NCBI RefSeq assembly: GCF_029937755.1 | Contig: NZ_JAPYPG010000001.1 | Location: forward strand, 372,001 to 436,000 | DNA: 64,000 bases | Direction: 5' to 3' | From: Henriciella sp. | GTDB lineage: Bacteria > Pseudomonadota > Alphaproteobacteria > Caulobacterales > Hyphomonadaceae | Shown: piece by piece, positions 11,570 through 40,548 of the stretch | Position numbering within the stretch: the stretch's first letter is position 1 | Layout: each line of letters begins with the position of its first letter | Notes under the pieces: generated by a model | Seen by the model: the letters and a program-made list of their open reading frames with translations, nothing else | Database searches by the model: none | Told to the model about the DNA's origin: nothing | Translations under genes and position numbers: made by a program

Positions 11570-12618
11570 TGGCCGCCTCGCTGCATCAGGCCGAGCCGTC
11601 CGCCGGCGCGTCCCTCGGAGGCCAGCCTGCTCAACCAGTCTTCCTGACCGAGATACCAGGTCACCGTGCGCGCCAGCCCCTGTTTGAGGTCGGAGGCGGG
11701 CGCCCACCCCAGCTCCCGGCTGATCTTCGAATGATCGATCGCATAGCGACGGTCATGACCAGGACGATCTGCCACCATCTCTATCAGGCGGCGGCCCTCG
11801 CCAGGGTCGCGCCCAAGGTTTTCATCGACCAGGTCGCAAACCGTGCGGGCAAGATCTAGATTTGTCATGGTGGCATCCCCGCCAATACAGTACGTCTCAC
11901 CGGGTTGCCCGCCCTGCGCCACCTTCAGCAGGGCGTCGGCATGATCCTCCACGAACAGCCAGTCACGAACCTGCTGCCCGTCGCCATAAACAGGAATGCT
12001 CTCCCGGCGCAGGGCTTTCATGATGATGGTCGGGATGAACTTTTCCGGGAATTGCCACGGGCCATAATTGTTCGAGCAGTTCGTAATGATCGCGGGGAAA
12101 TCATAGGTGTGCTGCCATGCCCGCACCAGCATGTCGGCAGAAGCTTTTGACGCCGAGTAGGGCGAATTCGGCTGGTAGGGCGAACTCTCCTTGAAAGCGC
12201 CTTCCGCAATCGACCCGAAAACCTCGTCCGTCGATATCTGGATGAACCGGAAATCGGGTCCAGTCATCGCCTCACGCTGCGCAGAGCGGCAGATATCAAG
12301 CAGCGCGTGAACGCCATTGATATTGGTCTGCACGAAGGCCAGGGAGTCGTCGATGGACCGGTCGACATGCGTCTCCGCCGCAAGGTTGAAGAGCCGGTCT
12401 GGCCGGAAGTCGGCGACGGCGCGTTTCATGGCATCCCGGTCGCAGATATCGGCCTTCAGAAAGCTGTAACTGGAAGAGCCATCGACATCGGCAAGGCTGT
12501 CCCGATTGGCCGCATAGGTCAGCTTGTCGACGTTCAGGACCGAGTGGCCCTGCGCGATGGCGCGGCGAATGAGCGCTGACCCGATGAAGCCGGCACCGCC
12601 GGTGATGAGAAGTCTCAT
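11566..12618 (-). CDS. rmlB: dTDP-glucose 4,6-dehydratase
   Basis: Second step of dTDP-rhamnose synthesis. Extended short-chain dehydrogenase fold with the NAD motif TGGAGFIGS at residues 6-14, an STDEVFG catalytic motif and the YSASKAS active-site tyrosine-lysine near residue 155; 350 residues is typical. It is first of the rmlBA pair, coupled to rmlA by a 4-bp overlap, and divergent from rmlCD across a 226-bp gap (12,619-12,844), which must hold both promoters; I see no clear operator there. Confidence 0.97.
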   Translation of the reverse strand: MRLLITGGAGFIGSALIRRAIAQGHSVLNVDKLTYAANRDSLADVDGSSSYSFLKADICDRDAMKRAVADFRPDRLFNLAAETHVDRSIDDSLAFVQTNINGVHALLDICRSAQREAMTGPDFRFIQISTDEVFGSIAEGAFKESSPYQPNSPYSASKASADMLVRAWQHTYDFPAIITNCSNNYGPWQFPEKFIPTIIMKALRRESIPVYGDGQQVRDWLFVEDHADALLKVAQGGQPGETYCIGGDATMTNLDLARTVCDLVDENLGRDPGEGRRLIEMVADRPGHDRRYAIDHSKISRELGWAPASDLKQGLARTVTWYLGQEDWLSRLASEGRAGGRLGLMQRGGQ

Positions 12619-12844
12619 TGCTCTACCCTACCGTGAGCCTGCCCCGAGGACCGGCCCAGCGTTACGCTCGCAGTTCAGCGCCTGACCGTTCCAGCACAGA
12701 CACAGTGGCCTAGCCTTTTGCAACACCTCCGGGCAAGGGAATTTATGCGCAGGAGAGAGGCCCGACCTGCGATGAAAGGGACGCACCCGCCCTCCCGGTC
12801 AGAGGCAAGATTGACGAGGTGCTCCGCTCAGGTCATCAAGCCGC

Positions 12845-13417
12845 ATGACAATCCTGAATGTCGAAACCTTCGCGATCCCCGGCCCGGCCCTGATAACGGT
12901 TGCGGCCCATGGAGACGACCGGGGATGGTTCAGCGAAAGCTGGAACGCCCAAGACTGGCGCGATGCGGGACTTCCTCATATCGACTGGGTGCAGGACAAC
13001 AAGGCGTTCTCGGCCGCTCCCGGGACAACGAGAGGGCTGCACTTCCAGACCCCACCGCATGCGCAGGCCAAGCTGGTGGACGTCCTGCGCGGAGAAATCT
13101 TCGATGCCATCGTGGATTTGCGCGCCGGCTCGCCGACCTTCGGGCGGGCGATAACCGTGCGGCTTTCGGCCCAGGCCCATTCCCTGCTGTATGTTCCGGT
13201 CGGCTTCGCGCATGGCTATCAGACCCTCAGCACCAACACCCTCGTCGCCTACAAGGTGTCCGATCACTACGCCCCGGAATGCGAGGGCGGCCTCCTGTGG
13301 TGCGACGTCTCCCTCGGCATCGAATGGCCCCGGCCCGATGATGTCGTAATGTCTGGCCGTGACTTCACCTGGCCCGGCCTCGCCGAGCTGGATACACCCT
13401 TCGCATACCAGGCATGA
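12845..13417 (+). CDS. rmlC: dTDP-4-dehydrorhamnose 3,5-epimerase
   Basis: Third step of dTDP-rhamnose synthesis. The 190-residue cupin-type protein shows the family motifs DDRGWFSE, RGLHFQ with the catalytic histidine, VDVLRGEIFD and VPVGFAHGY. The stop overlaps the rmlD start by 4 bp (ATGA), so both are translated from one message. The order rmlBA divergent from rmlCD is unusual compared with the usual single rmlBDAC or rmlBACD operon, but the set is complete. Confidence 0.96.
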   Translation: MTILNVETFAIPGPALITVAAHGDDRGWFSESWNAQDWRDAGLPHIDWVQDNKAFSAAPGTTRGLHFQTPPHAQAKLVDVLRGEIFDAIVDLRAGSPTFGRAITVRLSAQAHSLLYVPVGFAHGYQTLSTNTLVAYKVSDHYAPECEGGLLWCDVSLGIEWPRPDDVVMSGRDFTWPGLAELDTPFAYQA

Positions 13418-14310
13418 GCGGGGCCGGCAGCATACTCGTTACCGGCGGCAGTGGCCGGCTCGGACAAGCCCTGGCCCGCCAGGGCTGCACGGCGCTCAGC
13501 CGTGCCCGTATGGATATCACCCAGCCTGAACAGCTTGCCGCCGTATTCGATGATTTTCGCCCGGCCGCGGTCATTAATGCGGCGGCCTATACCGCCGTCG
13601 ATGCCGCCGAGGAGAACGAGGCCGCTGCGCGCGCGATCAACGCCGATGGCGCCGGTCATATTGCGGCTTGTTGCGCGGCAGCCGGCATTCCGCTCATCCA
13701 CATTTCCACCGACATGGTCTTCTCGACAGGCGATCCTGACCACCCCCTGGACGAGGCCGCCAGGCCGTCCCCCAACTCGGTTTATGGCGCCACCAAGCTT
13801 GAAGGGGAGCTTGCCGTTCAGGCGGCAGGGGGCCGCCATGTGATTGCACGGGTGAGCTGGCTGTTCGATAGGACAGGGACGAGCTTCATCAGCAAGATGC
13901 TTGAGATTGCGGCAGACAGGCCTGTGCTCAAGGTCGTCACTGATGAGACAGGCCGTCCGACCGATACCGATGCCCTCGCGGCGCACCTGGTCCAGCTTGC
14001 CCGACACCTGATCGAGGCGATCGAAACCCCGTCCCTGCTCCATCTTGGGCCAGGCCCGGCCGCAAGCCGCTTCGACTGGGCCAGGCGGGTATTCGAGACC
14101 TCTGCTCGCGCTGGCGGTCCCCGCCCAGAGCTGGAGCCCGTAACGGGCGAGACCTTCCAGACAGCCGCCGAAAGGCCAAGGGGGGTCGTGCTGGACGTCC
14201 GTCGCGGAGATGCCCTGCTCGGCCCTCTTCCAGACTGGCAGGCCTCAAGCGACGAAGCTGTACGCGCCCACCTCGCTGGTCCTCCCTCTGCGCCCAAAGG
14301 GAGCCGGTAG
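13414..14310 (+). CDS. rmlD: dTDP-4-dehydrorhamnose reductase
   Basis: Last step, NAD(P)H reduction to dTDP-L-rhamnose. 298 residues; Rossmann motif VTGGSGRLGQ near 9-18, NAAAYTAVDAAE motif, the STDMVF segment (the family usually has STDYVF) and the catalytic YGATK near residue 125. Standard length and order after rmlC, with coupled translation. The consumer enzymes are probably among the GT2 glycosyltransferases at 30-36 kb. Confidence 0.95.
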   Translation: MSGAGSILVTGGSGRLGQALARQGCTALSRARMDITQPEQLAAVFDDFRPAAVINAAAYTAVDAAEENEAAARAINADGAGHIAACCAAAGIPLIHISTDMVFSTGDPDHPLDEAARPSPNSVYGATKLEGELAVQAAGGRHVIARVSWLFDRTGTSFISKMLEIAADRPVLKVVTDETGRPTDTDALAAHLVQLARHLIEAIETPSLLHLGPGPAASRFDWARRVFETSARAGGPRPELEPVTGETFQTAAERPRGVVLDVRRGDALLGPLPDWQASSDEAVRAHLAGPPSAPKGSR

Positions 14311-14388: not shown

Positions 14389-15288
14389 ATGTCAGCGGAA
14401 ATTCTCGAAACGATCGATACGGGCGCCATTCTTGGTGAGGGCGTCGTCTGGAATGCTCAGACACAGACCGTCTGGTGGACAGACATACAGGCCCGCCGGC
14501 TTTACGCCCTGACATGGCCCGGGCTTGCGCTGACCATGTATGAGACGCCCGAACGCCTTTGTTCGTTCGGGTTCATCGAGGGCGATGACGACCGGATCGT
14601 GGCTGCGTTCGAGACCGGATTTGCACTGTTCTCGCCGCACACGGGTGACGTGTCCTGGCTCGACAAGCCCGCGCAGCTGACCCGCGGCCGGCGCCTTAAT
14701 GACGGGCGCATCGGACCGGATGGCCGCTTCTGGGCCGGATCGATGATTGAAAAGCCCGATGCTGGATTGTCGACAGATGATACGGGTTTCTATTGCCTCG
14801 ATACCGACGGCAAGGCGCGCCTGGAGCAGCCAGGTCTCGAAATCTCGAACGGCCTCTGCTGGAGCCCGGACGGAACGCGCGTCTACTTCTCAGACTCACC
14901 TGCCGGTGAAATCTACACAGCGGCCTATAATGGCCAGGATGGCCGGTTCGGCCCACGCAAACCGTTTGCGACCGTAAAGGGTGGCGGCCCCGACGGCGCC
15001 ATCACCGACACGGACGGCCATGTCTGGAGCGCGATCTGGGGCGGCAACCGGCTGACCCGATTTTCGCCGGAGGGCGATATCAGCCTCGATCTCGAGCTGC
15101 CTGTCCCGCAGCCCACCTGTCCGGTGTTTGGAGGCGAGGACCTCGACCTGATCTTCGTGACCACGGCGACCGAAGGGTTGAGCGACGACACGCTTGAAGC
15201 ATCCCCGGTCTCGGGCCGCCTGATTATTCTTGAGGCGCCAGAGGGGGTCACCGGGTTGCCGGGTTATCGTTACAGAATGGACCGCTAG
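14389..15288 (+). CDS. SMP-30/gluconolactonase family lactonase
   Basis: Six-bladed beta-propeller hydrolase of sugar lactones. The 299-residue product shows the first metal ligand in GEGVVW, the [17 protein letters not shown] motif, and the [11 protein letters not shown] segment with the conserved Asn and Asp ligands. The in-frame start at 14,353 is rejected in favour of ATG 14,389, which has an aaggaa six bases upstream. Relatives hydrolyse glucono-, arabino- or galactonolactones; a sugar 1-dehydrogenase-like gene at 24,678 could supply such a lactone, but the two are 9 kb apart. Stop overlaps that of convergent fcl by 4 bp. Confidence 0.88.
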
Positions 15289-16259
15289 ACCCGCAGGTCG
15301 GCGCTCTCATAGTTCTCGAGGAACCATTCATAGGTCGACTTCAGGCCGTCGCTCAGGCTGATTTTTGGACGCCAGCCCATCTCCGCCAGCTTGTCGCCAC
15401 TCATCAGCTTGCGCGGCGTGCCATCCGGCTTCGTGGTGTCCCGGGTGACGTCGCCATCAAGGCCAACAGCCTGCATGACCAGTTCGGCGAGTTCGGCGAT
15501 CGTCACATCCGTGCCTGACCCGACATTGACGTGCTGGTTGCCGCAATAGTTCTTCAGCAGGAAGACGAGCGCGTCGGCGCAGTCATCGACATGAAGGAAC
15601 TCCCGTCGCGGCTCGCCTGATCCCCAGATCTCGATCCCTGACCGCCCGGCCATCTTGGCATCGTGCGCCTTGCGCATGAGCGCCGGAATGACGTGGGAAT
15701 TCTCAAGGTGAAAATTATCCCCCGGTCCGTACAGATTTGTCGGCATGGCGGAAATATAATCGACCCCATACTGCCGACGATACGCTTCGCAAAGCTTCAG
15801 CCCGGCGATCTTGGCGATGGCATACCACTCATTCGTCGGCTCAAGCGGCCCCGTGAGCAGCGCATCCTCCGGAATGGGCTGCGGGGCCATCTTCGGATAG
15901 ATGCAGGATGAGCCGAGGAAGAGGAGCTTCTCGACATCTGCGCGGAAGGCGGCCTCGATGACATTGGTCTCGATGACGAGATTTTCATACAGGAAATCGG
16001 CTGGATAGGTGTCATTGGCGACAATCCCGCCCACCTTGGCAGCGGCCAGCACCACTGCATCGGGCTCGCGGTCTGCCATCCATGCGCGCACGCCAGACTG
16101 GTCGAGCAGATTAAGCTCCTGCCGGGACGCCGTCAGGATTTCGCAATCTTCGCGCTCAAGACGGCGGACGACGCCCGCTCCGACCATGCCGCGGTGACCG
16201 GCAACGAAGACGCGCTTGCCCTTTGGGTCGAATTCAGTAGTTGTGCTCGTCTCAGCCAT
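15285..16259 (-). CDS. fcl: GDP-L-fucose synthase
   Basis: Bifunctional epimerase-reductase that turns GDP-4-keto-6-deoxymannose into GDP-L-fucose. 324 residues with the cofactor motif [10 protein letters not shown] near 17-26, the AAKVGGI motif, SSCIYP and the catalytic YAIAK near 147, all hallmark WcaG/Fcl sequences. Its start codon overlaps the stop of gmd (TGATG), so it is the second gene of a gmd-fcl operon. Confidence 0.97.
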
Positions 16260-17326
16260 CAGGCCGTCCAGTCCTTTCGCCAGTCTTCCCGGCTAACCGT
16301 CTTGAGGTCGGCAGCAACCATTTCCTTTACAAGGTCCGGAAAGGCTGTGCTGTGTTTCCAGCCGAGCTTCTCGTGCGCCTTCGAGGGATCACCGATGAGA
16401 AGATCGACTTCTGTCGGGCGGAAATAGCGCGGATCAATCCGGACGAGCGCCTCACCGGTCTCGGCATCCTTGCCGACCTCATCGACGCCTTCGCCTTCCC
16501 ATTCGATGGTCTTGCCGGTTTCGGCAAAGGCAAGCTCGACAAATTCCCGCACCGAATGGGTCTCGCCGGTCGCGAGAACCCAGTCATCGGCGGTGTCGTG
16601 CTGGACGATGCGCCACATGCCTTCGACATAGTCGCGCGCATGACCCCAGTCACGCTTGGCATCCAGGTTACCGAGATAGAGGGTTTGCTGCAGGCCGAAC
16701 TGGATCGCGGCCACGGCGCGGGTGATCTTACGCGTCACGAAGGTTTCACCGCGGGTCGGCCCCTCATGGTTGAAGAGAATGCCGTTGGAGGCGTGTATAC
16801 CGTAGGCCTCGCGGTAGTTCACCGTAATCCAGTAGGCATATAGCTTCGCGGCCGCATAGGGAGACCGCGGATAGAAAGGCGTCTTTTCCGACTGGGGAAC
16901 TTCCTGGACCTTGCCATAGAGCTCCGAGGTAGAAGCCTGGTAGAAGCGGACCTTCTCCTCAAGGCCAAGTATACGGATCGCCTCAAGGATACGCAGTGCA
17001 CCGACCGCATCGGCGTTGGCGGTATATTCCGGGGTTTCGAAACTGACCTGCACATGGCTCTGGGCGGCCAGATTATAGATCTCGTCCGGCTGGGTCTCCT
17101 GCACCAGACGAATGAGATTCGTCGAATCCGTGAGATCGCCATAATGCATGAAGAACTTCGTATTGTGCTCATGCGGATCAGCGTAGAGAGGATCGACACG
17201 CTGGGTATTGAAAGACGAAGAGCGGCGCTTCACGCCGTGAACTTCATAGCCCTTTTCAAGCAGGAGTTTCGCCAGATACGCGCCGTCCTGACCGGTGACG
17301 CCGGTGATCAGAGCTTTTTTCGACAT
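16259..17326 (-). CDS. gmd: GDP-mannose 4,6-dehydratase
   Basis: Dehydrates GDP-mannose to GDP-4-keto-6-deoxymannose. 355 residues with [13 protein letters not shown] near 8-20, the Gmd-specific [14 protein letters not shown] segment, and [12 protein letters not shown] with the catalytic Tyr/Lys near 155. GDP-mannose would come from the manC-type enzyme at 1.1 kb. The upstream 373-bp region contains a TATAAT-like minus-strand hexamer at 17,554-17,559 that could serve as its -10 element. Confidence 0.97.
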
Positions 17327-17699: not shown

Positions 17700-20600
17700 A
17701 TGAGAGTTGTTCTTTATCCAGCCCTGTCGAAAGCTAAGGACTTCAACGATCAGTACTTTCGCGCTCTCTGGTATTTAGCTCCGTTTGCGGATCAAATCAG
17801 CTCGATTGATATGCCGACAACCCAGGCTCGCAAACCCGGCAAGCCTCCCAACTATCTCGATAGTTCTCTCAAAAGCCTCGAAGGCACTCTTACCGTCAAC
17901 ACCCCCGTAGCAAAGACGGCCGAAGACCTTGAGGCACTGGTTGAGGCGAGTGACCTGATCATCGCCTGGTCCGTGGATAGCAAGAAGCCGTTTGCTCGCA
18001 TTCCCGGGTCGAAGGGCAAGAAAATTGCCTGGACCGACCAGAATAACTTTCAGTATGGGGCCTCGCTCTATCTGAAAATCGCTGAAAATTTTCCAGAGTT
18101 CATGGACGAGAGCCTGAAGCGCTCACGCCGGATATTCCGGGACATCCATTCGCGCTGCGCAAACCAGAAAGGATACTTGTTCGGCACCGGACCTAATCTC
18201 AGTCAGGCGAATAATTTCGATTTTTCGGACGGCACGCCGATCGCCTGTAACAGCATGGTCCGCAATCACCAGCTGATGGACCGCCTCACCCCCCCGCTCA
18301 TCGTCGTGGGGGATCCCATTTTCCATGCAGGTCCCTCAAGCTATGCCGCCGCGTTTCGTAACGATCTGATCCGAGCACTGGACAAATATGACAGTCATCT
18401 CGTTGTGCCGATGCGTGACTATCATATCTACCGCACGCACCTGCCCGAACGTTTTGCTAACAAGATCTGTGCGATTCCCTTCGCCGATGGCGACACGCCA
18501 AACCTGAACCTGGTTTCAGAGTTTCAGGTAACGACTACGGCGAATATCCTGACGCTTTTTCTGCTGCCGCTGGCCGCCACACTATTCGAAGAGATAAGCA
18601 TTGCCGGCTGCGACGGACGCCCTGTTGATCAGAACACATATTTCTGGGGCCACGACAAGGCTTCACAGATCAATGAAGAGATGAGCCGGATCCAGCTTGC
18701 GCATCCTGCTTTCTTCAATGTCGATTACGACGACTATTATTCCACTCACTGCAAGACGCTCGAAACATGGCTCTCCGCCATGGAAGAGCGCGGGAAAGCA
18801 ATCAAGAACATGACAAGCTCCTATATTCCTGCCCTGAGCAAACGAGGACCGGATGCGGCCGAAGACCAAAAGCAAAAATCCCGTGGCCGCAAGAAGCCTC
18901 TGATCTCAATTGTCATGCCCGTTCATAACGGCGAGAAGCACCTGGAAAGTGCGATCAAATCAGTCCGTACGCAGGATATTGATGACTGGGAACTGTTGGT
19001 CATCAACGATGGATCTACCGATTCCAGCGTTGATATCGTTAAGCGCCTCGCCGAGGAAGATTCAAGAATCAAGTTAACGACGGTGGAACAGGGGGGCGTC
19101 TCACGCGCACGTAACAAGGGGCTCGAACTTGCCGAGGGCAGCTACATCGGCTTTGTGGACGCCGATGACCTGCTGGACCCGCGATCCCTCAAAGCGCGGC
19201 TCGATGTTCTCCAGTCCGGCACTGGCACGCAAATGGTTCACGGCTGGGTGGATGTTGTCGGCAACGACGGCAAGAGCATGAACCTTGGGGTCGGAACAAA
19301 ATCCGACATCTGCTTCTTCGACGCCTGGCGCAATCCTGCACATCTCAATACCGTTACGGGAGAAGCCAAGCTTCTCAAGCAGTTTCGATTCAATGAAAAG
19401 GTTGCGCATGGAGAAGACTGGCTCTTCCTTGGGCAAATTTTGCGCTCCGGCGTGACTTCAAGATTTGTTCCGGATGGCGGCGCTCGCTGGCGCTTCTGGG
19501 GTAGTTCCTCAACCTCGAAGGATCTCTCCTCTCACTTTGAAAGCCTGCAAACTGTTATCGACTGGCTGACAACACCGATAAACGACGATGCAATTCCACG
19601 GCAGTACAGAAACGGCCTGATTGGCAAGACATCACAGGACCTTGAGGCTGCAGCCAAACGTTCTGTGTTCATTTCCAAACTGCTTGAAGGCGACACCGAT
19701 TTCTGCCGTAGCGTCATCGAAGATGTTGCTCTCTCCACGAAAAATGAAGAATTCGGCCGCATCAAATGGCTTCGGACTATCGAGTTTGCGGCAGCACGGA
19801 AGTTTTCGACCCCTCCTTCTAAATTGAAGGCCACCGGCAGGGACCTTCGCGACAGAATTCTCGATGCATCGAAAAGCCTTGATCTGCGCCGGCAGATTCC
19901 CCAGCTCGGAGCTGTCCTGTCCGAGGTTTTCGGTGAGCAGCTGCCGCAGACCTCAACAGTGGATGTTCCGGCCGCTGACGAGGCTACCCTGAAGGACATC
20001 CGCGACGCGGAAATCAAGAAGCTTCCGAAATATCTGAGAATGGGCATCTTCCTGCCAACTGACAGGGTTTCGCTGGAGGAACAGATCCGCGGAATTCATA
20101 AGATAGCCAACATCTACGACTCGGGCGAAATTGATACTCACCGAAGCCTGTTGAAAGACTTGCGTAACGGCCGCAAACGCAAACGCTGTTTCATTATCGG
20201 TAATGGCCCCAGCCTTAAGAAGACTGACCTCAGCCCCCTGAAGAACGAGGACACATTCGTCACCAATGGCTTCTTCCTGAAGATGCCGGAGCTCGACTGG
20301 ACCCCCACATATTATGTGGTTGAGGATCACCTTGTGGCCGAAGACCGCAAAAAGGAAATCAACAACCTCCACGGGCCGACAAAGCTGTTTCCCGCCTATC
20401 TTCGGTACTGCCTCAATCCCGATAAAGACACGATCTTCTTCAATCACCGTCCCCGTGTCAGTTTTCCTGACGGTTTCGACTTCTCGTTTGATGCCGATGA
20501 CCATACCTTCGCTGGCGGTACCGTAACGTTCACCTGCATGGAGCTGGCTGCCTTTCTCGGCTATGAGGAGATTTACCTCATCGGGGTCGATGCAAGCTAC

Positions 20601-23600
20601 GCCATTCCTAAGGATGCAACCGCTTCCGGTCCGGGGCGTGTAAAAGAACTCGACATGAAGTCGGACGATCCCAACCACTTCCATCCGGACTATTTCGGCA
20701 AAGGCAAGCGTTGGCACGAACCCAATGTCGATGTCATGCTGAAAGCCTATGAAGAAGCGAGGGCACGCTGCGACGAGCGCGGCCAGATCATCGTCAATGC
20801 AACAATCGGAGGGAAGCTCGAAGTCTTTCCGCGAACGGATTATGAGAGCCTGTTCGATCCCGGATTTAACCTACCGAAGACCCTCGTTATTGATCTGACA
20901 CGAATAGGGGATCCAAGTGCGACGGGCGCATTGAAGGCAGAGTTGCTTGGTGACTGTCCCAAGAACAGGATTCTTCAGCTACACGGTGGGCCGTTCAATA
21001 CCATAGGCGTGTATCCGGGCAATCAGAAACCAGCGCTTAATAATCCTCTGGTGTATGGCTATTCCGAGCTAGAACAGGTGGTCCGCGCATTTGCGCCAGA
21101 TGTCATCCTGTACCGACCGACTCCCAATACACCAGCCCTGCACGATGCAGCGAAGCACATCCTTAACATGACAGGGCTCCCGCTCGTGACATGGATCATG
21201 GACGATTGGCCCACTGCGTATCTCGAAGACGATCTGGCAAAAGGCAGGCAACTGCTTTCCGATTTCCAGAAGCTGGCGCGCGATTCTGCGTATTGCCTGT
21301 CTATTTCTGATTACATGTCGGAAGCTTTTGAGGAGCGCTACGGCGTTCCTTTCATCCCGGTTGCCAACGGCGTGAGGCCCGAAGACTGGGAGCCCGCGAC
21401 CAAGAAGGCACCGGAAGATCCGGTTATTGTGAGATATGCTGGTTCGCTCGCGGAGAACATGACGCTGTCGACGCTGCTGATGATTGCAGAAGCTATCGAG
21501 GGCATGGTTCGCGAAGGTAAGAAAATCAGCTTCGAGATTAAAACGCGGCAAGTTTGGTATAACCGGGTGGAACCACTGTTTCGCCACCTGAAGCATACAG
21601 ACTTCATCGTAGGTGATTTGCCGATCGAGGATTATCGCAACTGGCTAAGTGGTGCTGACATTACGGTCATTGGCTATAATTTCGACGACAAATCAAAGCG
21701 TTACATCCAATATTCACTTGCAAACAAGCTTCCGGAGTGCCTCGCATCTGGAGCAACCTTGCTGGCTGTCGGCCCTGACGATGTCGCCACAATCAAAAAA
21801 GTCCGGGAAACCGGGGTGGGGGTTGTCGTCGATCAAAACGATCCAAATGCGATCACGAAGACAATCGACGAACTTGCAGCTTCGCCTGAGCGTCGATACG
21901 CATTGGCAACGAAAGCTCAAGAATTAGCTTTTACCTCATTCAACCTGAATTCGACGCGGAAGAAACTCGTGAATGTACTCCTGAAATCGAAGAAGCTGTC
22001 CGAAGCCGCCAAGCTGACATATCCGCGCTCGGCCGGCGCACATGTCGATGAAACCGAGGTGGTTTCACGCATGCTGTCCGACCGGAAGGGCCCCGGCCAC
22101 GTCATGATCGATGTCGGTGCGCACTTTGGCACGTCCGCACGCTATTTCGCGAGTCTCGGCTGGACCGTTCACTGCTTTGAACCTGATCCCGAAAACCGGA
22201 AAAAACTGGTCGAACGCGTTGGCAAGATGGACAATGTTTCCATCGACACACGCGGCGTGAGCGACAAGAAGGAAACAGGTGTTTCGTTCTTCACCTCTCC
22301 AGAGAGCACCGGCATTAGCGGACTTTCCGCATTTCGTGACACGCACCAGGAGAGTGCCAAGGTCGATTTGACCACAACGGCCGAAATCATCCGTGAACGC
22401 AATTTGAAACACATCGACTTCCTGAAGATTGATGTCGAGGGCTTCGACTTCTCGGTGCTGAAGGGTGTGCCGTGGAATACTCTGAAACCCGACGTGGTCG
22501 AGTGTGAATTCGAGGATGCCAAGACTGTTCCCCTCGGCCACACATGGAAGGATATCGCCAATTATCTTCGTGCACGCGGTTACCATGTCTATGTGAGCGA
22601 GTGGCACCCGATTATCCGGTACGGAATTCCGCATGACTGGAGCCGGGTCTACAAGTATCCGGGACCAAGCATGGATAGCAGTGCATGGGGCAATTTCCTA
22701 GCTTTCCGGGAAGACCCCGGATATGACGCCGTCTCCAATGCGTTCAACGCCCTGCTGAAATTTAGGCAAAAAAGCAAACCTGAAATGCTGAAAAAAACTC
22801 CCAACAAGCCTGCTCTGCCTGTGGTCAAGGCCCCAGCCCCCTCCTCTACAGCTCCACAACCAAGTGGTATGCTTCAGCGTCGCTTGGCTGGTATTCGCCG
22901 TTTTGCAGGGGTCGCCGCCACGCATTTCTGGGCGCGCAAATCATGGACGCTTCCACTCGCGGGTGTCGTCATGCTCGCTTTCCTTCTTACTTTCCTGCCA
23001 CCGTTTGCTGCAGCAGGCTCGGTGTGGCGCTTGACGCTTCTGTTCGGACTCATCTCGATCGGCCTGCTTTACGTCACCTTCAGGACTTTTTCCGCTCTTA
23101 CCGCCCTACGCCAGGAACTTCAGGCCCTGCAGACCCAGTCCCAGAATCCTGCTGCGCTTAAACTCCAGCAACACCGTATAGACAGTCTCGGACGGTCGGT
23201 TTCCAAGATTGAGCCTCTTGTGGGAGATATCGCGGATATCAAGTCGCGTATCGGGCGGTTAAACGCTACCAGCGGCCATGCAGACAGTCTGACCCGCCGA
23301 CTGGGTGAGGAGTTCTCGGACTACGCGAAATCTACCGAGCACGCCCTCGAAAGCATTCAGGTGCAACTGAAGGCCACTGATGAACGTGCGTCCCAGGTGG
23401 GCAAGTTGAAAACCTTGATCGACCAGAAGGGCGAATTCATTTCGCAACTTCAAACACGGGTGAATGCCGTGGAGGCGGCCGACTATACGGCCCAAATTTC
23501 GGAATTGAGAAATGCCCATGCCGAGCTGGAGGATTCCAAGGCCAAGCTGAGCGCCGCGCTTGATGAGCTCAGGATGTCTTATGACAAACTGGATTCCATG

Positions 23601-24662
23601 CTGGACGATTTCAGTACTAAAACCAGCGAGAAACTCGGCCAGCTCTCTGACAGGGGCGATCAGACGCGAGAAAAGCTCGATCAGCTCAGTCAGTGGGAAG
23701 ATGAGGCCGAAAAGACGCTGGCCGGACTGACGGAAGGGGCCCAGCAAACCGGAACAAAACTGGCTAACCTGATTGAGACTGACAAAGAGACCCGGGAAAC
23801 GATTGCAAGCCTGAGCAAATGGAAACAGTTCAACAACGCTGCCTGGTTCCAGCACTTCAATCGCGAACTAGGTCCCGATCACATCCAGATATTCGAGAAG
23901 GATTGGCCGAAACGGCTTTCCATACCGATCTCGAAAGCCAGTCTCGGCTACATGGCTGCCAAGGCCTGTGACGTGGAAAAGCAGCTGGACGGACGGCTTG
24001 CCACCTCGATCGAAGACATCCTCCTGCGGACCCTGGTCGCGCGCTCGATAAAAGGCAAATCCGCAAAAATCCTCGAAATCGGGACATTGTTTGGTACGGG
24101 TGCTGCCATCATGTTTGATGCCATGGTCAATCACTTTGACCATGTTCACTTCACACTGCTGGATCCGCTGGAAGGCTATTACAATGCCAGTCAGGCTGAC
24201 ATCTTGACCGGGCAACCCGTAGACGAGCGGACACTCCGCCGCAACCTCCAGCGCGTTGGAATGACCGACGACAACTTTAACCTGATCAAGACACTGAGCA
24301 CGCAACCGGAAGCACTCGAGGAAGCTGCCAAGGAGCAGTATGATCTGCTCGTGATCGACGGTGATCACTCCTATGCCGGTGTGAAAACCGACTTCGAGAA
24401 CTATGCGCATCTCGTGAAGCTGGGCGGCTACATCATCTTCGACGACTATAACTCCAAGGACTGGCCAGACGTTCAGGAATATGTCGACAATGAACTCGCC
24501 GACAGCGCCTTCATTTCGCGCGTGGGCGCAAGCTGGCGGACCTGCGTTTACCGTGTTGTGAAGGCACCTGCCACGACAACGCGCCGCCGCAAATCGACCA
24601 CGCCTGCCCGGAAAGCTGCGGAGAAGTCGAGCACAAAAGCCGCGGCAGGCAGCCAAGGCTGA
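17700..24662 (+). CDS. Giant 2,320-residue multidomain glycosyltransferase/methyltransferase with membrane hairpin and coiled coil
   Basis: Domains read in order: N-terminal region (1-150, unassigned); MptE/Maf-like domain (GTGPNL at 162-167); GT2 glycosyltransferase (VMPVHNG from 405, NDGST 436-440, DADD 487-490); second MptE/Maf-like domain (GNGPSL at 834-839, to about 1043); GT4-like domain (about 1060-1430); FkbM methyltransferase (IDVGAHFG from 1470, KIDVEG 1576-1581); Pro/Ala-rich linker near 1695-1720; two membrane helices (about 1751-1772 and 1776-1794); long coiled coil (about 1800-2045); class I SAM methyltransferase (EIGTLFGTG from 2126, IDGDH 2219-2223); Lys/Arg/Ala/Thr tail to 2320. 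No signal peptide, so enzymatic parts on both sides of the hairpin should face the cytoplasm. Codons are A/T-richer than in neighbours. Function inferred: polysaccharide assembly, modification and perhaps length control with Wzm/Wzt. No frameshift seen. Confidence 0.9.
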   Translation: MRVVLYPALSKAKDFNDQYFRALWYLAPFADQISSIDMPTTQARKPGKPPNYLDSSLKSLEGTLTVNTPVAKTAEDLEALVEASDLIIAWSVDSKKPFARIPGSKGKKIAWTDQNNFQYGASLYLKIAENFPEFMDESLKRSRRIFRDIHSRCANQKGYLFGTGPNLSQANNFDFSDGTPIACNSMVRNHQLMDRLTPPLIVVGDPIFHAGPSSYAAAFRNDLIRALDKYDSHLVVPMRDYHIYRTHLPERFANKICAIPFADGDTPNLNLVSEFQVTTTANILTLFLLPLAATLFEEISIAGCDGRPVDQNTYFWGHDKASQINEEMSRIQLAHPAFFNVDYDDYYSTHCKTLETWLSAMEERGKAIKNMTSSYIPALSKRGPDAAEDQKQKSRGRKKPLISIVMPVHNGEKHLESAIKSVRTQDIDDWELLVINDGSTDSSVDIVKRLAEEDSRIKLTTVEQGGVSRARNKGLELAEGSYIGFVDADDLLDPRSLKARLDVLQSGTGTQMVHGWVDVVGNDGKSMNLGVGTKSDICFFDAWRNPAHLNTVTGEAKLLKQFRFNEKVAHGEDWLFLGQILRSGVTSRFVPDGGARWRFWGSSSTSKDLSSHFESLQTVIDWLTTPINDDAIPRQYRNGLIGKTSQDLEAAAKRSVFISKLLEGDTDFCRSVIEDVALSTKNEEFGRIKWLRTIEFAAARKFSTPPSKLKATGRDLRDRILDASKSLDLRRQIPQLGAVLSEVFGEQLPQTSTVDVPAADEATLKDIRDAEIKKLPKYLRMGIFLPTDRVSLEEQIRGIHKIANIYDSGEIDTHRSLLKDLRNGRKRKRCFIIGNGPSLKKTDLSPLKNEDTFVTNGFFLKMPELDWTPTYYVVEDHLVAEDRKKEINNLHGPTKLFPAYLRYCLNPDKDTIFFNHRPRVSFPDGFDFSFDADDHTFAGGTVTFTCMELAAFLGYEEIYLIGVDASYAIPKDATASGPGRVKELDMKSDDPNHFHPDYFGKGKRWHEPNVDVMLKAYEEARARCDERGQIIVNATIGGKLEVFPRTDYESLFDPGFNLPKTLVIDLTRIGDPSATGALKAELLGDCPKNRILQLHGGPFNTIGVYPGNQKPALNNPLVYGYSELEQVVRAFAPDVILYRPTPNTPALHDAAKHILNMTGLPLVTWIMDDWPTAYLEDDLAKGRQLLSDFQKLARDSAYCLSISDYMSEAFEERYGVPFIPVANGVRPEDWEPATKKAPEDPVIVRYAGSLAENMTLSTLLMIAEAIEGMVREGKKISFEIKTRQVWYNRVEPLFRHLKHTDFIVGDLPIEDYRNWLSGADITVIGYNFDDKSKRYIQYSLANKLPECLASGATLLAVGPDDVATIKKVRETGVGVVVDQNDPNAITKTIDELAASPERRYALATKAQELAFTSFNLNSTRKKLVNVLLKSKKLSEAAKLTYPRSAGAHVDETEVVSRMLSDRKGPGHVMIDVGAHFGTSARYFASLGWTVHCFEPDPENRKKLVERVGKMDNVSIDTRGVSDKKETGVSFFTSPESTGISGLSAFRDTHQESAKVDLTTTAEIIRERNLKHIDFLKIDVEGFDFSVLKGVPWNTLKPDVVECEFEDAKTVPLGHTWKDIANYLRARGYHVYVSEWHPIIRYGIPHDWSRVYKYPGPSMDSSAWGNFLAFREDPGYDAVSNAFNALLKFRQKSKPEMLKKTPNKPALPVVKAPAPSSTAPQPSGMLQRRLAGIRRFAGVAATHFWARKSWTLPLAGVVMLAFLLTFLPPFAAAGSVWRLTLLFGLISIGLLYVTFRTFSALTALRQELQALQTQSQNPAALKLQQHRIDSLGRSVSKIEPLVGDIADIKSRIGRLNATSGHADSLTRRLGEEFSDYAKSTEHALESIQVQLKATDERASQVGKLKTLIDQKGEFISQLQTRVNAVEAADYTAQISELRNAHAELEDSKAKLSAALDELRMSYDKLDSMLDDFSTKTSEKLGQLSDRGDQTREKLDQLSQWEDEAEKTLAGLTEGAQQTGTKLANLIETDKETRETIASLSKWKQFNNAAWFQHFNRELGPDHIQIFEKDWPKRLSIPISKASLGYMAAKACDVEKQLDGRLATSIEDILLRTLVARSIKGKSAKILEIGTLFGTGAAIMFDAMVNHFDHVHFTLLDPLEGYYNASQADILTGQPVDERTLRRNLQRVGMTDDNFNLIKTLSTQPEALEEAAKEQYDLLVIDGDHSYAGVKTDFENYAHLVKLGGYIIFDDYNSKDWPDVQEYVDNELADSAFISRVGASWRTCVYRVVKAPATTTRRRKSTTPARKAAEKSSTKAAAGSQG

Positions 24663-24677: not shown

Positions 24678-25610
24678 CTAATTGAAGATCGGCTCAACGG
24701 CCTGGCGGATTGCCAGGCCGTTCGCTTTTTCGGCTATCCGAAGCGGCGTCAGATCGAAGTCGGTCTTGCCCGACGCGATCAAGCCAGCAAAGTGGCTGTA
24801 AAGCCGCTCATACTCAAGCTGGTGACCCGATCTCTCAGGACCGCCATTCAGTGAAAGCACCGCCCCTCCCTGCGAGAGAGCGAGTGTAGTGCCAACCTCA
24901 TCTTCAAGATCCAGTGTCCACGTTTCTTCCTGCTCCCCCCGAAAATCGAACGAAACGTCTATGCTCGCCGTCCCCGTGTGGAGCATCATGTCGACGGCAA
25001 TCGGAGTCCGTGAATTCTCAGGCACCTGATAAGTCGCCCTTTGGACCTCGTAGCTTCCCGGCAGCAGGCGGCTGAGAATGGACAGCGCATTGATCCCTGG
25101 GTCGAAGACACCAAATCCGCCGTCCTCCCATAGCCAGGCTTGGCCCGGATGCCATTTCCTCACATCCTCATGCCAGACGATACGTCCGGAGACGATATCG
25201 CGCTGATGCGCCCAGGCTGCGGCCTCATCGACCATCGGCGCAAAGCGCGAATGCCAGCTGGCGTAAGCCACGCATCCGGCCTGGCGCGCAGCCTCTTCAA
25301 TGCGCAACGCCGTCGCAACATCGGTCGCAGGCGGTTTTTCGAGCATAACCGCACAGCCTGCTTCAAACGCCATTTCTGCGACCTCCGTCCTCACCGAAGG
25401 GGGCGTACAGATTGTAACGGCATCGATGTGACCGCCAGCGTTCAGTGCCTCCTTCAGGCTGGCATGAACTGGTACGCCAAACTCCGGCTGGGGCCGGGTC
25501 GAGACAAGATAGGCCAACTCGAACTGATCAGACGCCCTGATCACGGGAATATGCTGGTCGCGCGCGATCTTGCCCACGCCCACTAGCGCAACCTTCAATG
25601 GCGCTTGCAT
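24678..25610 (-). CDS. Gfo/Idh/MocA oxidoreductase, D-galactose/L-arabinose 1-dehydrogenase-like
   Basis: The 310-residue product has a GVGKIARDQH Rossmann start, an EKPP motif with the catalytic lysine and the segments KWHPGQ and FDPGINALSI, which I associate with bacterial D-galactose and L-arabinose 1-dehydrogenases of this superfamily. Such enzymes oxidise aldoses to lactones with NAD(P). An SMP-30-type lactonase at 14.4 kb could hydrolyse the product. Alternatively it may act on an activated sugar of the polysaccharide pathway. Its 3' end contains the terminator hairpin of the opposite gene, which it encodes as part of the sequence NGLAIRQAVE. Confidence 0.8.
   Translation of the reverse strand: MQAPLKVALVGVGKIARDQHIPVIRASDQFELAYLVSTRPQPEFGVPVHASLKEALNAGGHIDAVTICTPPSVRTEVAEMAFEAGCAVMLEKPPATDVATALRIEEAARQAGCVAYASWHSRFAPMVDEAAAWAHQRDIVSGRIVWHEDVRKWHPGQAWLWEDGGFGVFDPGINALSILSRLLPGSYEVQRATYQVPENSRTPIAVDMMLHTGTASIDVSFDFRGEQEETWTLDLEDEVGTTLALSQGGAVLSLNGGPERSGHQLEYERLYSHFAGLIASGKTDFDLTPLRIAEKANGLAIRQAVEPIFN
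24696..24730 (+). terminator. Intrinsic terminator of the giant gene, inside the convergent dehydrogenase gene
   Basis: Perfect 11-bp inverted repeat aacggcctggc (24,696-24,706) and gccaggccgtt (24,712-24,722), 5-nt loop, followed by cg and a run ending in five T. It lies 34 bp after the giant gene's stop and within the last codons of the minus-strand gene at 24,678. The T run is only on the plus-strand side, so it serves the rightward transcript. Confidence 0.85.
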
Positions 25611-25661
25611 CAGGCTGAAACCTTCGCGGAGAAAATTACGGTCAACGCGCGCAAGCCAACC

Positions 25662-26966
25662 TCACCCGCCGTTTGCAACATCATGCAGAGGTTCGTTCAG
25701 CCCTTGCTGCCTGCTGATCAACTTCCATCTGTGCGGAACAGTAACGGCGCCCCAGGTCGGGTGCGAAGGAGGCGTGATCACGACGTCCGGATTGGGTTCC
25801 CTGTAAACATGCTCTGGCCCATCGAGAATGGTCATCATTGATTTCAGTACTCCCGGGTTCATCACCCCCCCATCAACCTCCAGCAGAAGCTCGACCATTT
25901 CGCCCTTTTTCACGGTAAAGGCATCCGAGGTTATCTGTGTAGACAGTCCGGTAAGATATTGGGCGCTCGTGTTCCAGACAGGTATCCCGACAATTAAGGA
26001 ACGCACGTCGATCAGACTGCGGAACGCAACACGCAGTCTCAGAGGCGATTCAAAGCCAATACGTTCCACCGGCTCCCCTTTTTCGTTCACCCATTGATGA
26101 ACGACATCCTCCACCGCAGTATCGTTTGTGAATGTCGGCCCCATGACAGAGGCCAGCCTATCAGCGGGATCGCTCGTAGGCACGCTGGAATCCAGCGTTT
26201 CATAAACTTCGATCGCCTTGTCCGGCAGGCCCGTGAAGTGAACCTTTCCCTTGTGCATGACGATCACCTGGTCGCAAAAATTCCGGATGTCCCCCATTGA
26301 ATGCGAGACAAAGACAAATGCGCTTCGGCTTCGCATTTCCCTGATCTTCGCGAGGCATTTCTGCCGAAAGCGGAAGTCACCGACTGCCAGCACTTCATCA
26401 ATCAACAGCACGTCCGGCGATACGATCGCCATGATCGCGAAAGCGAGCCGCATCTGCATACCGGAGGAGTAAGTCGCCAGCGGCGCATCCAGAGCGTGCT
26501 CGAGCTCGGAAAACGCGATGATCTCATCAAGATGCCGCCTGGTTTCCGCCCGGCTGAAACCAAGCGCAGCAGCCCGGAGAAAGATGTTCTCAAGCCCCGA
26601 AGCCGACGTCTGGAATCCTGCGCTCAGATCGATCATTGAGGCCGAAGATCCGCGCACCCGTATTTCGCCCGCATCCGGCAGGATCTGACCGGCAAGCATG
26701 CGAAGAAGCGTCGTCTTGCCTGACCCGTTGAGACCAATGATCCCAATCGCCTCACCTCGCCTCAACTCGAATGAAACGTCATTGACAGCCCAGAATTCTG
26801 TCGCCCGCAGATTATCCTTTTTAGGAGCCGACATGTTGAAGAAAGCACGCCTCGCCGCCTGGCTCAGACGGCGGCGGATGGCCGAGCGCCGGCGTGCGTA
26901 GAGCTTGCCAACCGCTTTTGCCTCCAGGACGATATCAGGCCGGGTGTCTGGCGTCTTGTCGCTCAT
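25662..26966 (-). CDS. wzt: Polysaccharide ABC exporter ATPase with C-terminal extension (Wzt-like)
   Basis: ATPase subunit of a polysaccharide/O-antigen ABC exporter. In the 434-residue form: Walker A GLNGSGKTT near 78-86, signature YSSGMQMR near 166-173, Walker B LLIDEVLAVGD near 187-197. Beyond the ATPase (after about residue 260) is an extra beta-rich domain of about 150 residues, the position of the Wzt carbohydrate-binding domain that recognises the modified chain end. The frame is open to 27,023, but ATG 26,966 overlaps the permease stop as ATGA and is preferred. The N-terminal 55 residues before the ATPase core are longer than in simple KpsT. Confidence 0.92.
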   Translation of the reverse strand: MSDKTPDTRPDIVLEAKAVGKLYARRRSAIRRRLSQAARRAFFNMSAPKKDNLRATEFWAVNDVSFELRRGEAIGIIGLNGSGKTTLLRMLAGQILPDAGEIRVRGSSASMIDLSAGFQTSASGLENIFLRAAALGFSRAETRRHLDEIIAFSELEHALDAPLATYSSGMQMRLAFAIMAIVSPDVLLIDEVLAVGDFRFRQKCLAKIREMRSRSAFVFVSHSMGDIRNFCDQVIVMHKGKVHFTGLPDKAIEVYETLDSSVPTSDPADRLASVMGPTFTNDTAVEDVVHQWVNEKGEPVERIGFESPLRLRVAFRSLIDVRSLIVGIPVWNTSAQYLTGLSTQITSDAFTVKKGEMVELLLEVDGGVMNPGVLKSMMTILDGPEHVYREPNPDVVITPPSHPTWGAVTVPHRWKLISRQQGLNEPLHDVANGG

Positions 26967-27838
26967 ACAACACCCCGGATGCGGTGTTCCATGACATAGA
27001 AAAACCGGATCCCGATCAGGCACAGAAGAACACTAACACCGGACCAGGCAAAGAGAGCTGCAGGAAATGGATACTCACCCCGAAAAAGCCCATCTCGGGC
27101 TGCGTTAAGGAACACGCAGAACGGGTTGGCGACCTCCAGTACCGACAGAGGGCCCATCGCCGCTACAGGAAAGATGACCCCGCTGAGGAACAGCCCGTAC
27201 TGAAGGATGATCGTCACCAGGCGCTGGGTGTCTGTGTAAACGATGTTTACGATCGAAAGCAGCAGGCCGAGCGATATGCAGAAAACCAGCGACGCGGCAA
27301 TGCTCAGCATCAGCCAGCCGATGTGAATGTTCGGCCAGGCCCGATAGCCGATGACAAGTGCGATGATCACGCAGAAACGTACGAGCGTATCGAATGTGAG
27401 CTGGGCAAAGGAAGATGCGATTGCGGCCGAGAGAGGAAGCGACGTTTTCATGGCGCTCGCCGCCTTGGTCTGAACGACAGAAATCGGCCGGGTTATGAGT
27501 CCTGTAAACAGGTACCAGAGCATCACGTTGAAACCAATGAAGACCGCCGGAGGCAGGCCCTCATAGGAAGGAAATACACGTATGCTGACCAGGAAGAAAT
27601 AGACCGTGATCGGCACGAGGGGCAGAACGATGTTCCAGAAGACCCCCAAGACAGTTCCCCGATAGGAGCTTTTAAAGTCGTTCGCGAAGAGCGTGGTGAT
27701 GTGCGACCGGAATTGATACAGCTCCGATGCAAGCTCCCGGATCGCCTTGAACGGACCGGTATGGAACCGGGTTTCTGGGACGTATACACGTTGGACCGGC
27801 GCAGTCTTGCTGTCTGTGTTTGCCGATGTGTCTGCCAT
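26963..27838 (-). CDS. wzm: Polysaccharide ABC exporter permease (Wzm-like)
   Basis: Inner-membrane ABC-2 type permease of 291 residues with about six hydrophobic helices after an N-terminal cytoplasmic segment containing the family's LYQFRSHITTLFANDFKSSY-type amphipathic stretch followed by GTVLGVFWNIVLPL. Pairs with the downstream Wzt-like ATPase by a 4-bp overlap. With no Wzx/Wzy genes visible, this pair is the evident export route for a polymer completed in the cytoplasm. Divergent from the 622-residue protein gene. Confidence 0.93.
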   Translation of the reverse strand: MADTSANTDSKTAPVQRVYVPETRFHTGPFKAIRELASELYQFRSHITTLFANDFKSSYRGTVLGVFWNIVLPLVPITVYFFLVSIRVFPSYEGLPPAVFIGFNVMLWYLFTGLITRPISVVQTKAASAMKTSLPLSAAIASSFAQLTFDTLVRFCVIIALVIGYRAWPNIHIGWLMLSIAASLVFCISLGLLLSIVNIVYTDTQRLVTIILQYGLFLSGVIFPVAAMGPLSVLEVANPFCVFLNAARDGLFRGEYPFPAALFAWSGVSVLLCLIGIRFFYVMEHRIRGVV

Positions 27839-27987
27839 AAAAGAATCCGGTCTACCAACGCGCTACATCACTGACGTATCTTAACAGTTAGCTGCCGAAC
27901 CAGCACGGAAGTGTCAACGCAGGTTCTTCATTGTCTCGGGCCAGCTTTGCAATTGACCTTTGTAATTTCAGACCACACACAATCCCG

Positions 27988-29856
27988 ATGCTATTCAGGT
28001 CAAGATCCTCCGCCAGCAACAGGTCCGCAAGGGCGGCAAGCGCCCGCCCCCTTGCCCTGCTCGGAAACGGCCCAAGCATGCGCGACTTCGATTTCGCGCG
28101 GCTTTCAGGCATTGATTCAGTCGGCATGAACGCAGCCTACCGGTATTGGAAACGCATAGACTGGCGGCCGACGCATTATGTCTGCCTCGATGATGCGCTG
28201 ATCGACACTCATCACGCCGCCATCGCAGACCTCATCAAGGAAAGCCGCATCGAAAGCTTTTTCCTGTCCGGCAGGATACTCGAATACGATCGGGAACTCG
28301 CAAGACACGAAAAACTACGTTTCCTCGACGAATTCGTGCCTCATTGGCATTCCATTCGCGGCAAGGCCTATGGTCTGGACTTCCACGACGAGGCGGCCTT
28401 CCGTACGAGCGAACCCAACCTGCTGACCACGGGCGCCTACGCAGCCCGCTATGCAGTCCTGCTCGGGTATGAGACGATTGGCTTGTTCGGAATAGACCTG
28501 CGCTATGCGGCCATTGACGAGGCCACGCCGCTCGAAGGCGCCCGCCTCAGGATGAGCCGGACGCCCAAGACGAATCCCAATTATTTTTTTGACGACTATC
28601 AGCAGGAAGGCGACCTGTTCCACGTCCCGAATCCGGAGGCTCACGAGCGCGACCTGCACCTGGAAGCCTTCCGCGCACTGAGAGATGACTTTGCGGACCA
28701 GTCGATGCCGGCACGCATCTTCAATACCAATGCCAAGTCCCGTCTGTCTGCAGAATGCATATTTCCTTACTGTCCCGCCCAACAGTTTCTGAATGAGCCG
28801 GCCATCACGTCCGTTATCATTCCTGTTACCGAAGCCGAGATTGACCAGCTCATGACCAACCTGGACATCTGGTCCCAACCCTCCGGGGCGCCTTGGCTCG
28901 GGCCGGCGCCGAAATCGCCTCCAGCCCTGGTATTCGTATTCAACAATCAGCGCGCCGCAGATAACGAAAACAGGATTCGGGAAAAGCTGGAGTCGCATCC
29001 TCACCTGCGTGCCGGGTTTGGCAGTCTGCGCTTCATCAATCTCGCTCTCGCGGGAGACGCTGACCTCTATGAGCGCTCCAACCAGGCAATACCGGGCGCC
29101 CAGGGTCTGCGCGCCGGACCCAACAATCTGTTTTTCGGCGCCATGGAGGCGGTTGCTGATCTTTCTGGTCACTCAATCTACCTGGAAACCGATTGTGTTC
29201 CGATCCGCGCTGACTGGCTTGGCGCAGCCAACAGGCTTCTCGAAAGTCCTGCAAAGCCGTGGATTTCCGGATCGATCTATCTCGGTCACGAAGCGCTGGG
29301 TTCCACAGAGACGCGCCATATCAACGGCAATGCTGTCTACGCCTCAGGCGATCCTGATTTTCAGGAGTTCATGAACCGGGTCTGGAAGCCTCATATGGCC
29401 GCGATGCTTGGGGAACGCCCCGAACTGCCCTTCGATTGCGCCGTTGAAGACCTGTTCCAGCGCGCCCGGTCTCAACTGGGAGAGGCCGATCCGGCATGGC
29501 AGAGTGTCCGCTGGATCGCACACCGCATGCAGTACAGCCTGTTCATTGCCAATCTTGCCGGGGAGGCCGTTGCGGGAAGTGATCTCGCCGCACGGATACA
29601 ACAGCTGGTCGAGAGCACTCCGGAGACGCATTTCATTCATTCGAGACAGCTTGCAGACATCTTCGCTGGCCTGGAAAAGGAAGGCATCCCCCCCCGGCTT
29701 TCGAATGCACTCTTGCGCCTGCGCGGCGAGAAAGATGCTGATGGTACGCCGGCCCAGTCCCGGAGCAGGATAGACGCCAGCCAGGCGGGAGCAGGCGGCA
29801 TGGTGCGGCGCCTGAAGCAGGGCCTGGGCAGGATTGGCCTTCAAAGACGCCGCTAG
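27988..29856 (+). CDS. MptE/Maf-like domain plus putative GT-A-like domain protein, 622 residues
   Basis: Not a family I can name as a whole. Residues about 20-290 are an MptE/Maf-like (DUF115) domain: GNGPS at 26-30, an MNAAY segment, PTHYVCLDD and IGLFGIDLRY near 165. Residues about 310-560 look like a glycosyltransferase fold: a beta strand FVFNN, a conserved-looking RAGPNNLFFGA helix and YLETDC at 398-403, an acidic motif like the DXD of GT-A enzymes. The C-terminus is a basic tail. No signal peptide or membrane segment. Start uncertain: ATG 27,988 has no clear ribosome site; TTG 27,931 is also in frame. Two domains of the giant protein share the first fold. Confidence 0.8.
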   Translation: MLFRSRSSASNRSARAASARPLALLGNGPSMRDFDFARLSGIDSVGMNAAYRYWKRIDWRPTHYVCLDDALIDTHHAAIADLIKESRIESFFLSGRILEYDRELARHEKLRFLDEFVPHWHSIRGKAYGLDFHDEAAFRTSEPNLLTTGAYAARYAVLLGYETIGLFGIDLRYAAIDEATPLEGARLRMSRTPKTNPNYFFDDYQQEGDLFHVPNPEAHERDLHLEAFRALRDDFADQSMPARIFNTNAKSRLSAECIFPYCPAQQFLNEPAITSVIIPVTEAEIDQLMTNLDIWSQPSGAPWLGPAPKSPPALVFVFNNQRAADNENRIREKLESHPHLRAGFGSLRFINLALAGDADLYERSNQAIPGAQGLRAGPNNLFFGAMEAVADLSGHSIYLETDCVPIRADWLGAANRLLESPAKPWISGSIYLGHEALGSTETRHINGNAVYASGDPDFQEFMNRVWKPHMAAMLGERPELPFDCAVEDLFQRARSQLGEADPAWQSVRWIAHRMQYSLFIANLAGEAVAGSDLAARIQQLVESTPETHFIHSRQLADIFAGLEKEGIPPRLSNALLRLRGEKDADGTPAQSRSRIDASQAGAGGMVRRLKQGLGRIGLQRRR

Positions 29857-38839: not shown

Positions 38840-39039
38840 AATCGGTCCAGGTCGGTTCGGTCGCGAAGGGGCCTAGGTAGCAAGTGCCCCGTGCCGTAAC
38901 AACTTAGAGACGGTCAACTCAGACGCCGTGTTTTTCTTAACTCAGGCGCAGATACCCTCTCCGGCCCGCAGCTTCCTTACAGGCTTGACGCTCGCAGGGA
39001 CAGCGCGCAGACCCGCAGGCAATGCATGGAGGCGGCGCC

Positions 39040-40469: not shown

Positions 40470-40548
40470 ACTCAGGCTTGCAGTTGCCGCCTTCGCCGTG
40501 AACAGCTAGGCGATGTGATCCGATTAGAGTTCCGCTTCGAGCCCCCTG

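Follow-up and report, generated by a model that had tools for sequence, protein, structure and literature searches.

Results

An uninterrupted giant gene among polysaccharide genes

The DNA analysed here, a 64,000-nucleotide stretch from Henriciella sp. that we call the window, contains one uninterrupted frame at 17700–24662 (+) that encodes a protein of 2,320 residues. A sequence-only reading had described it as a single frame of about 7 kb joining two Maf/MptE-like domains, two glycosyltransferases (GTs), two methyltransferases, a membrane hairpin and a coiled coil. Each of these elements was confirmed by sequence or fold, as Pfam, fold and profile searches returned GT2, MptE-like, GT4, FkbM and MT24 modules. 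The fear that sequencing errors had merged adjacent genes proved unfounded, since a protein from a Henriciella MAG (P0002) is 63% identical throughout its full length.

Upstream of the giant gene lie the dTDP-L-rhamnose genes rmlA and rmlB (-) and rmlC and rmlD (+) at 10700–14310, recognized through Pfam NTP_transferase, GDP_Man_Dehyd/Epimerase and dTDP_sugar_isom. RmlC also scores above its NCBIfam cut-off; RmlD was assigned only by reading the translation. The GDP-L-fucose genes fcl and gmd (15285–17326, -) follow, with NCBIfam matches above cut-offs. Downstream are a Gfo/Idh gene, the exporter genes wzt and wzm, a gene for another MptE-like protein, GT2 genes and a cytidylyltransferase gene. 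The additional MptE-like protein (27931–29856, +; 641 aa) was detected with our own HMM and has no Pfam or NCBIfam match at 1e-3. Because polysaccharide precursor and export genes adjoin the giant gene, its proposed role in surface-glycan assembly is supported by rmlABCD, gmd/fcl and Wzm/Wzt. G+C content is 53.9% in the giant gene, 57.6% in 24678–29856 and 61.4% in the remainder of the window, and the lower values would fit exchanged polysaccharide genes.

Other genes in the region deserve mention. The cytidylyltransferase is PseF-like, below cut-off, and a KdsB-like gene is close by, a possible CMP-sugar context for GT42-like modules. The latter gene falls in 36033–42344, downstream of the glycan genes, together with CysNC and CysQ (NCBIfam) and a PAPS_reduct-domain frame that we read as CysD; these sulfate activation genes are perhaps housekeeping. 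A protein with DUF2793, a domain known from phage-like genes, is encoded inside the glycan region at 32741–33757.

Four candidate glycosyltransferase modules precede a methyltransferase

The first approximately 395 residues, which we call domain A (residues 1–394; 17700–18881, +), have no Pfam match. A Rossmann half (residues 1–132) precedes a Maf/MptE/GT42-like fold at residues 117–388 or so. Maf is the top fold match, and fold comparison found both the Maf central fold and the GT42 fold, a fold common to Maf, GT42 and HPPK. Domain A has 128 relatives at E ≤ 1e-3, 120 of them listed, many about 400–450 aa long. Among the matches listed (P0121–P0240), many are nameless or "hypothetical", and in Campylobacter coli/jejuni six adjoin a GT2 label (P0180, P0186, P0187, P0189, P0191 and P0192).

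Next comes a GT2 module (residues 395–600; 18882–19499, +; PF00535, E 1.4e-28) with an accessory part to about residue 760; it also matches chondroitin synthase 2z87 (E 9e-19). The MptE-like/GT42-like module (residues 816–1052; 20145–20855, +) matches PF01973 (E 3e-10), and its 27-sequence profile finds CstII (E 3e-5), Cst-I (6e-3) and Maf 5mu5 (1.3e-2). It is followed by a GT4 module of the GT-B type (residues 1057–1432; 20868–21995, +), identified by fold. Because the fold matches of the second structural model were filled by GT4 rows, the MptE and FkbM assignments rest on sequence profiles. The candidates for polymerase GTs are thus GT2 (recognized by sequence), GT4 (by fold) and both GT42-like modules (by fold or profile).

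A membrane anchor, a coiled coil and a distal methyltransferase

The FkbM-family methyltransferase (residues 1441–1690; 22020–22769, +) is identified by PF05050 (E 3e-20) and TIGR01444 (E 2e-23, above cut-off). Kyte-Doolittle peaks then mark a transmembrane hairpin at residues 1747–1800 (22938–23099, +). A hairpin would leave both ends of the protein in the cytoplasm, as its nucleotide-sugar- and SAM-dependent parts need.

The 270 residues that follow (1801–2070; 23100–23909, +) form a predicted coiled coil, the proposed ruler. Its heptad z is 7.3, compared with -0.4 to 2.0 in eight other stretches of the protein, on a phase-tolerant score whose weights were devised for the present analysis. 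When the coil region was taken as a whole, a plain Fourier test gave no significant 3.5-residue period (p 0.44 and 0.41). Weak matches to SMC, Rad50 and Nsp1 coils fall below cut-offs.

At the distal end of the coil, in the C-terminal part of the protein, lies MT24 (residues 2078–2290; 23931–24569, +; PF13578, E 1.3e-15), a methyltransferase of the TylF/CmcI/rhamnosyl O-methyltransferase type. The first Asp of its DGD motif and both Asp of its DDY motif are conserved in 19/19 aligned sequences and align with those of MycF, a macrolide-sugar O-methyltransferase. We take these Asp to be metal-site residues. In the PDB, the MT24 profile matched designed TIM barrels best; no stretch was significant alone, and we rejected these matches as repeat artefacts. 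Anchor, coil and MT24 thus follow one another in the layout of a coiled-coil polymerase–terminator, with MT24 as the putative terminator.

An adjacent Wzm/Wzt exporter

The Wzm/Wzt exporter lies 1–3 kb from the giant gene. Wzt (25662–27023, -) combines an ABC ATPase with a C-terminal domain of the cap-binding type. Its two top PDB matches, 8dku (E 4.5e-54) and 7k2t (E 1.2e-53), are full-length Wzts of 404 aa, and residues 76–376 of the query align with 34–329 of the chain. Its Wzt_C match (E 9.4e-6) is under the Pfam cut-off. Wzm, the ABC-2 exporter membrane protein (26963–27838, -; PF01061, E 2.6e-12), is encoded 2.3 kb from the giant gene and is the sole match in the 3.78-Mb genome at E ≤ 1e-3. 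KpsM, far under cut-off, is its only NCBIfam match.

Relatives exchange modules around a recurrent chassis

We searched for relatives among proteins 0.55–1.75 times the query length, scoring the 7,989 candidates that shared most words. This search found 158 relatives, of which 120, including the window protein, were listed and annotated with HMMs made from the window protein's own domains. At the resolution of the seven HMMs in use, with unassigned stretches of at least 300 residues before a module scored "?", the 120 proteins show 52 module orders. Among these 120, the order A-GT2-MptE-GTB-FkbM-MT24 occurs in the window protein (P0001) and P0002 only. The earlier suggestion that no described protein has this order thus stands: open-licence literature searches returned, among the matches listed, no paper on this architecture or family.

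The C-terminal part recurs. FkbM is present in 115 of the 120; the last module is MT24 in 83 of these proteins, a sulfotransferase in 11 and neither in 21, some of which may be cut. Upstream of the last FkbM, we counted 33 different cassettes. A hydrophobic segment separates FkbM from MT24 in 81/83 proteins that have both, and one precedes the cap enzyme in 12/12 sulfotransferase proteins. The spacer ranges from 68 to 944 aa (median 218), and heptad z exceeds 3 in 64/81 of these proteins.

Two relatives of the window protein show clean exchanges. P0003 is 56% identical over residues 1–382 and 52% over residues 764–2312, with a GT4 module in place of the GT2 stretch at 383–763. P0007 is 48% identical over residues 1–1925 and then carries a sulfotransferase where the window protein has MT24; PF00685 clears its cut-off in P0026 and narrowly misses it in P0007. 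From these comparisons, the interchangeable N-terminal modules and the recurrent chassis of FkbM, transmembrane hairpin, coiled coil and cap enzyme make up what reads as a large module-shuffling family.

We also asked how regularly the exporter accompanies this chassis. FkbM and MT24 share one frame of more than 1,200 aa in 17 of 75 fetched loci, and 9 of the 17 have an adjacent Wzm/Wzt pair. Whole-genome searches found Wzm at E ≤ 1e-69 in 10 of the 17 genomes, adjacent in 9; in the tenth (G110), it is on a contig other than that of the chassis gene. A close Wzm was not found in the other seven, six Rhodospira/Roseospira and one cyanobacterium with a distant match only. The link between chassis and Wzm is therefore strong in the window's kin and not universal.

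The six Rhodospira/Roseospira loci (L040, L043, L047, L051, L053 and L055) have a divergent MT24 (128–140 bits). We considered that a chassis lacking a nearby Wzm might also lack hairpin or coil and rejected this idea, as 5/6 of the Rhodospira type have the hydrophobic segment and 4/6 a heptad z of at least 3. At 7/9 chassis loci with the Wzm/Wzt pair, an MptE-like frame is found within about 1.3 kb of Wzm.

The type of cap enzyme tracks the Wzt tail

We compared Wzt tails and cap enzymes across the taxonomic order. Of 398 genomes sampled evenly from it, 17 (the window's included) have MT24 at E ≤ 1e-25 and 9 have the sulfotransferase, 8 of them in a frame of at least 888 aa. A lone 261-aa sulfotransferase (G144) was not counted as a cap. 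We fetched 16 MT24 and 8 sulfotransferase loci. Among loci with a Wzt, a C-terminal tail is present in 11/13 MT24 loci and 0/6 sulfotransferase loci (Fisher p 0.0010, or 0.0007 if the window is included; one-sided 0.005 when shuffled within families, window counted), a post hoc comparison whose sample shares loci with the earlier 75-locus set. Pfam Wzt_C matched 4/4 tailed and 0/6 untailed Wzts among the 10 of 19 examined. FkbM shares the frame in only 9/16 MT24 and 4/8 sulfotransferase loci, so the tie concerns the cap and not the full chassis. MT24 is in a separate, shorter frame at L140 and L144 (480 and 511 aa).

The count of 11/13 leaves out L137, L142 and L143, contig pieces of 7.0, 11.0 and 4.3 kb with no Wzm/Wzt, and that of 0/6 leaves out L146 (G195), L148 (G273) and L153 (G824), which have no Wzm match. 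Around the locus in G195 and G273, the Wzt HMM matched only other ABC ATPase frames (347, 571 and 659 aa) with no Wzm alongside. G824 is the one further sulfotransferase genome from the family searches, and Wzm/Wzt were not matched on its 18-kb contig. In the class sample, MT24 was found in 0/384 other genomes and the sulfotransferase in 0/385.

The two MT24 loci of the order sample with a tail-less Wzt are L135 and L136; a separate sulfotransferase-like frame lies near the latter, so its true cap may differ. Outside the sample, a weak MT24 match (50 bits) with a tail-less Wzt at L064 is a counter-case. A tailed Wzt also accompanies MT24 at L037, L046 and L063, three further loci that were known to us before we predicted a tie of cap and tail.

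Discussion

A model for synthesis, measurement and export

Starting from the domains and their order, the adjoining exporter, the module swaps in relatives and the link of the Wzt tail to the type of cap, we propose that the giant protein probably acts as polymerase, ruler and terminator, all on one polypeptide, for a surface polysaccharide that leaves through the ABC exporter, with active modules, MT24 as terminator and the coil as ruler. The four N-terminal modules (Maf/GT42-like A, GT2, MptE/GT42-like and GT4) would work at the membrane, building the repeat sugars onto a lipid carrier from the nucleotide sugars that the adjoining genes supply: dTDP-rhamnose, GDP-fucose and perhaps a CMP-nulosonate. 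The choice of sugars, the use of CMP-sugars by the A and MptE modules and the target of FkbM are guesses. FkbM may O-methylate a sugar within reach of the membrane, where the hairpin would anchor the polypeptide to the inner leaflet and keep its two ends cytoplasmic. The coil, a ruler to judge from the layout, would hold MT24 away from the membrane, so that only chains of sufficient length would be O-methylated at their ends; growth would then stop. The Wzt tail would read the methyl cap and admit the chain for export.

As a rival explanation, the protein could be a fused multi-enzyme that exerts no length control, in which the coil only joins subunits and the two methyltransferases act on sugars throughout the chain. 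Two methyltransferases in one polypeptide would suit such a role, and FkbM enzymes commonly act in decoration. A swap to a sulfotransferase also fits decoration, heptad z is 3 or less in 17/81 relatives, and a close Wzm is missing from the six Rhodospira/Roseospira genomes with the chassis. Against this, 94 of the 115 FkbM proteins have MT24 or the sulfotransferase at the end, in most of them after FkbM, the hydrophobic segment and the spacer, and the Wzt tail tracks cap type. We consider this explanation unlikely. Alternatively, the proposed machine may be correct and its product a capsule or an S-layer or holdfast glycan instead of an LPS O antigen. The faint KpsM match of Wzm and the fusion of domain A relatives to GT2 in Campylobacter lean that way, as does the similar logic of WsaE, which makes an S-layer glycan (PMC2943079). 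The window Wzt, however, matches full-length O-antigen Wzts including part of the tail, and PMC9445017 describes such tails for O-antigen exporters, which makes a different product rather improbable.

The resemblance of two modules to Maf, the best fold match of domain A, raises the prospect of a protein-glycosylation enzyme of the flagellin-modifying kind. That fold, however, is also the one of GT42 and HPPK, the neighbours are polysaccharide precursor and export genes, and GT2, GT4, the coil and the exporter have no evident place in such a pathway. We rejected Maf-type protein glycosylation as the main role on gene context and give the idea very little credence. An assembly or frame artefact that fused several genes is refuted by P0002, and the 118 further listed proteins, each of at least 1,302 aa, also join such modules; its probability is negligible.

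Beyond this one gene, the polymerase–ruler–terminator reading may describe a class of assembly-line synthases, in which a recurrent chassis takes interchangeable GT modules and methyl or sulfate caps and the cap-reading domain of Wzt is kept or lost with the cap; we judge this generalization evenly poised. If it holds, an in-gene module swap would alter a surface polysaccharide in a single step. The family would then offer natural module-swap series within one polypeptide, in which a similar chassis is combined with differing sets of GTs, with spacers from 68 to 944 residues long and with either of two caps. Such series would permit direct tests of what coil length, the chemistry of the cap and the tail of Wzt each contribute to chain length and export. 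They may also yield parts that could be reused in glycan engineering. Termination by a sulfate cap paired with a tail-less Wzt would be of a type that our literature search found in no paper, and no open-licence paper was found that brings together Wzt, a coiled coil and a sulfotransferase.

Comparison with known systems

The anchor-coil-cap layout agrees with the polymerase–ruler–terminator strategy as set out in PMC11231755. WbbB of Klebsiella/Raoultella O12 likewise carries polymerase modules, a coil and a distal terminator in one chain, and its product is ABC-exported (PMC11231755). WbbB has three GT modules (GT99, GT102 and GT103) and a Kdo terminator at its N-terminus, whereas the window protein combines modules of the Maf/GT42-like, GT2, GT4, FkbM and MT24 kinds with a transmembrane hairpin, and its proposed terminator is C-terminal. 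WbdD and WbdA of Escherichia coli O8/O9a share the methyl-type cap, coil ruler, membrane association and Wzt-read cap, according to PMC3482155 and PMC11231755. They differ in being two proteins, and WbdD has an N-terminal methyltransferase (plus a kinase in O9a) and no GT; it is not among the PDB matches listed for the giant protein or its MT24. A Nitrospirae contig (L046) resembles such systems, where polymerase and terminator are separate: it splits the same module kinds over three frames, with MT24 at the end of a separate frame of 392 aa and a tailed Wzt close by.

WsaE, which acts on the S-layer glycan of Geobacillus stearothermophilus, joins a methyltransferase and two GTs in one chain, forms a 2-O-methyl cap and is encoded near Wzm/Wzt and rml genes (PMC2943079). 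WsaE is a soluble protein of three domains, and the review proposes that its chain length is set by some other factor (PMC2943079); the window protein has an anchor, a coil and four GT-like modules. The closest solved Wzt to the window's is that of Aquifex aeolicus Wzm/Wzt (7k2t/8dku), which has a C-terminal cap-binding domain; in PMC9445017, 7K2T is the A. aeolicus WzmWzt, and its tail binds a 3-O-methyl cap. The window Wzt, in comparison, has a putative cap-binding tail whose Wzt_C match lies below the curated Pfam cut-off. The best reading of these parallels is that the giant protein would follow a logic like that of WbbB, WbdD/WbdA and WsaE but is built from different domains.
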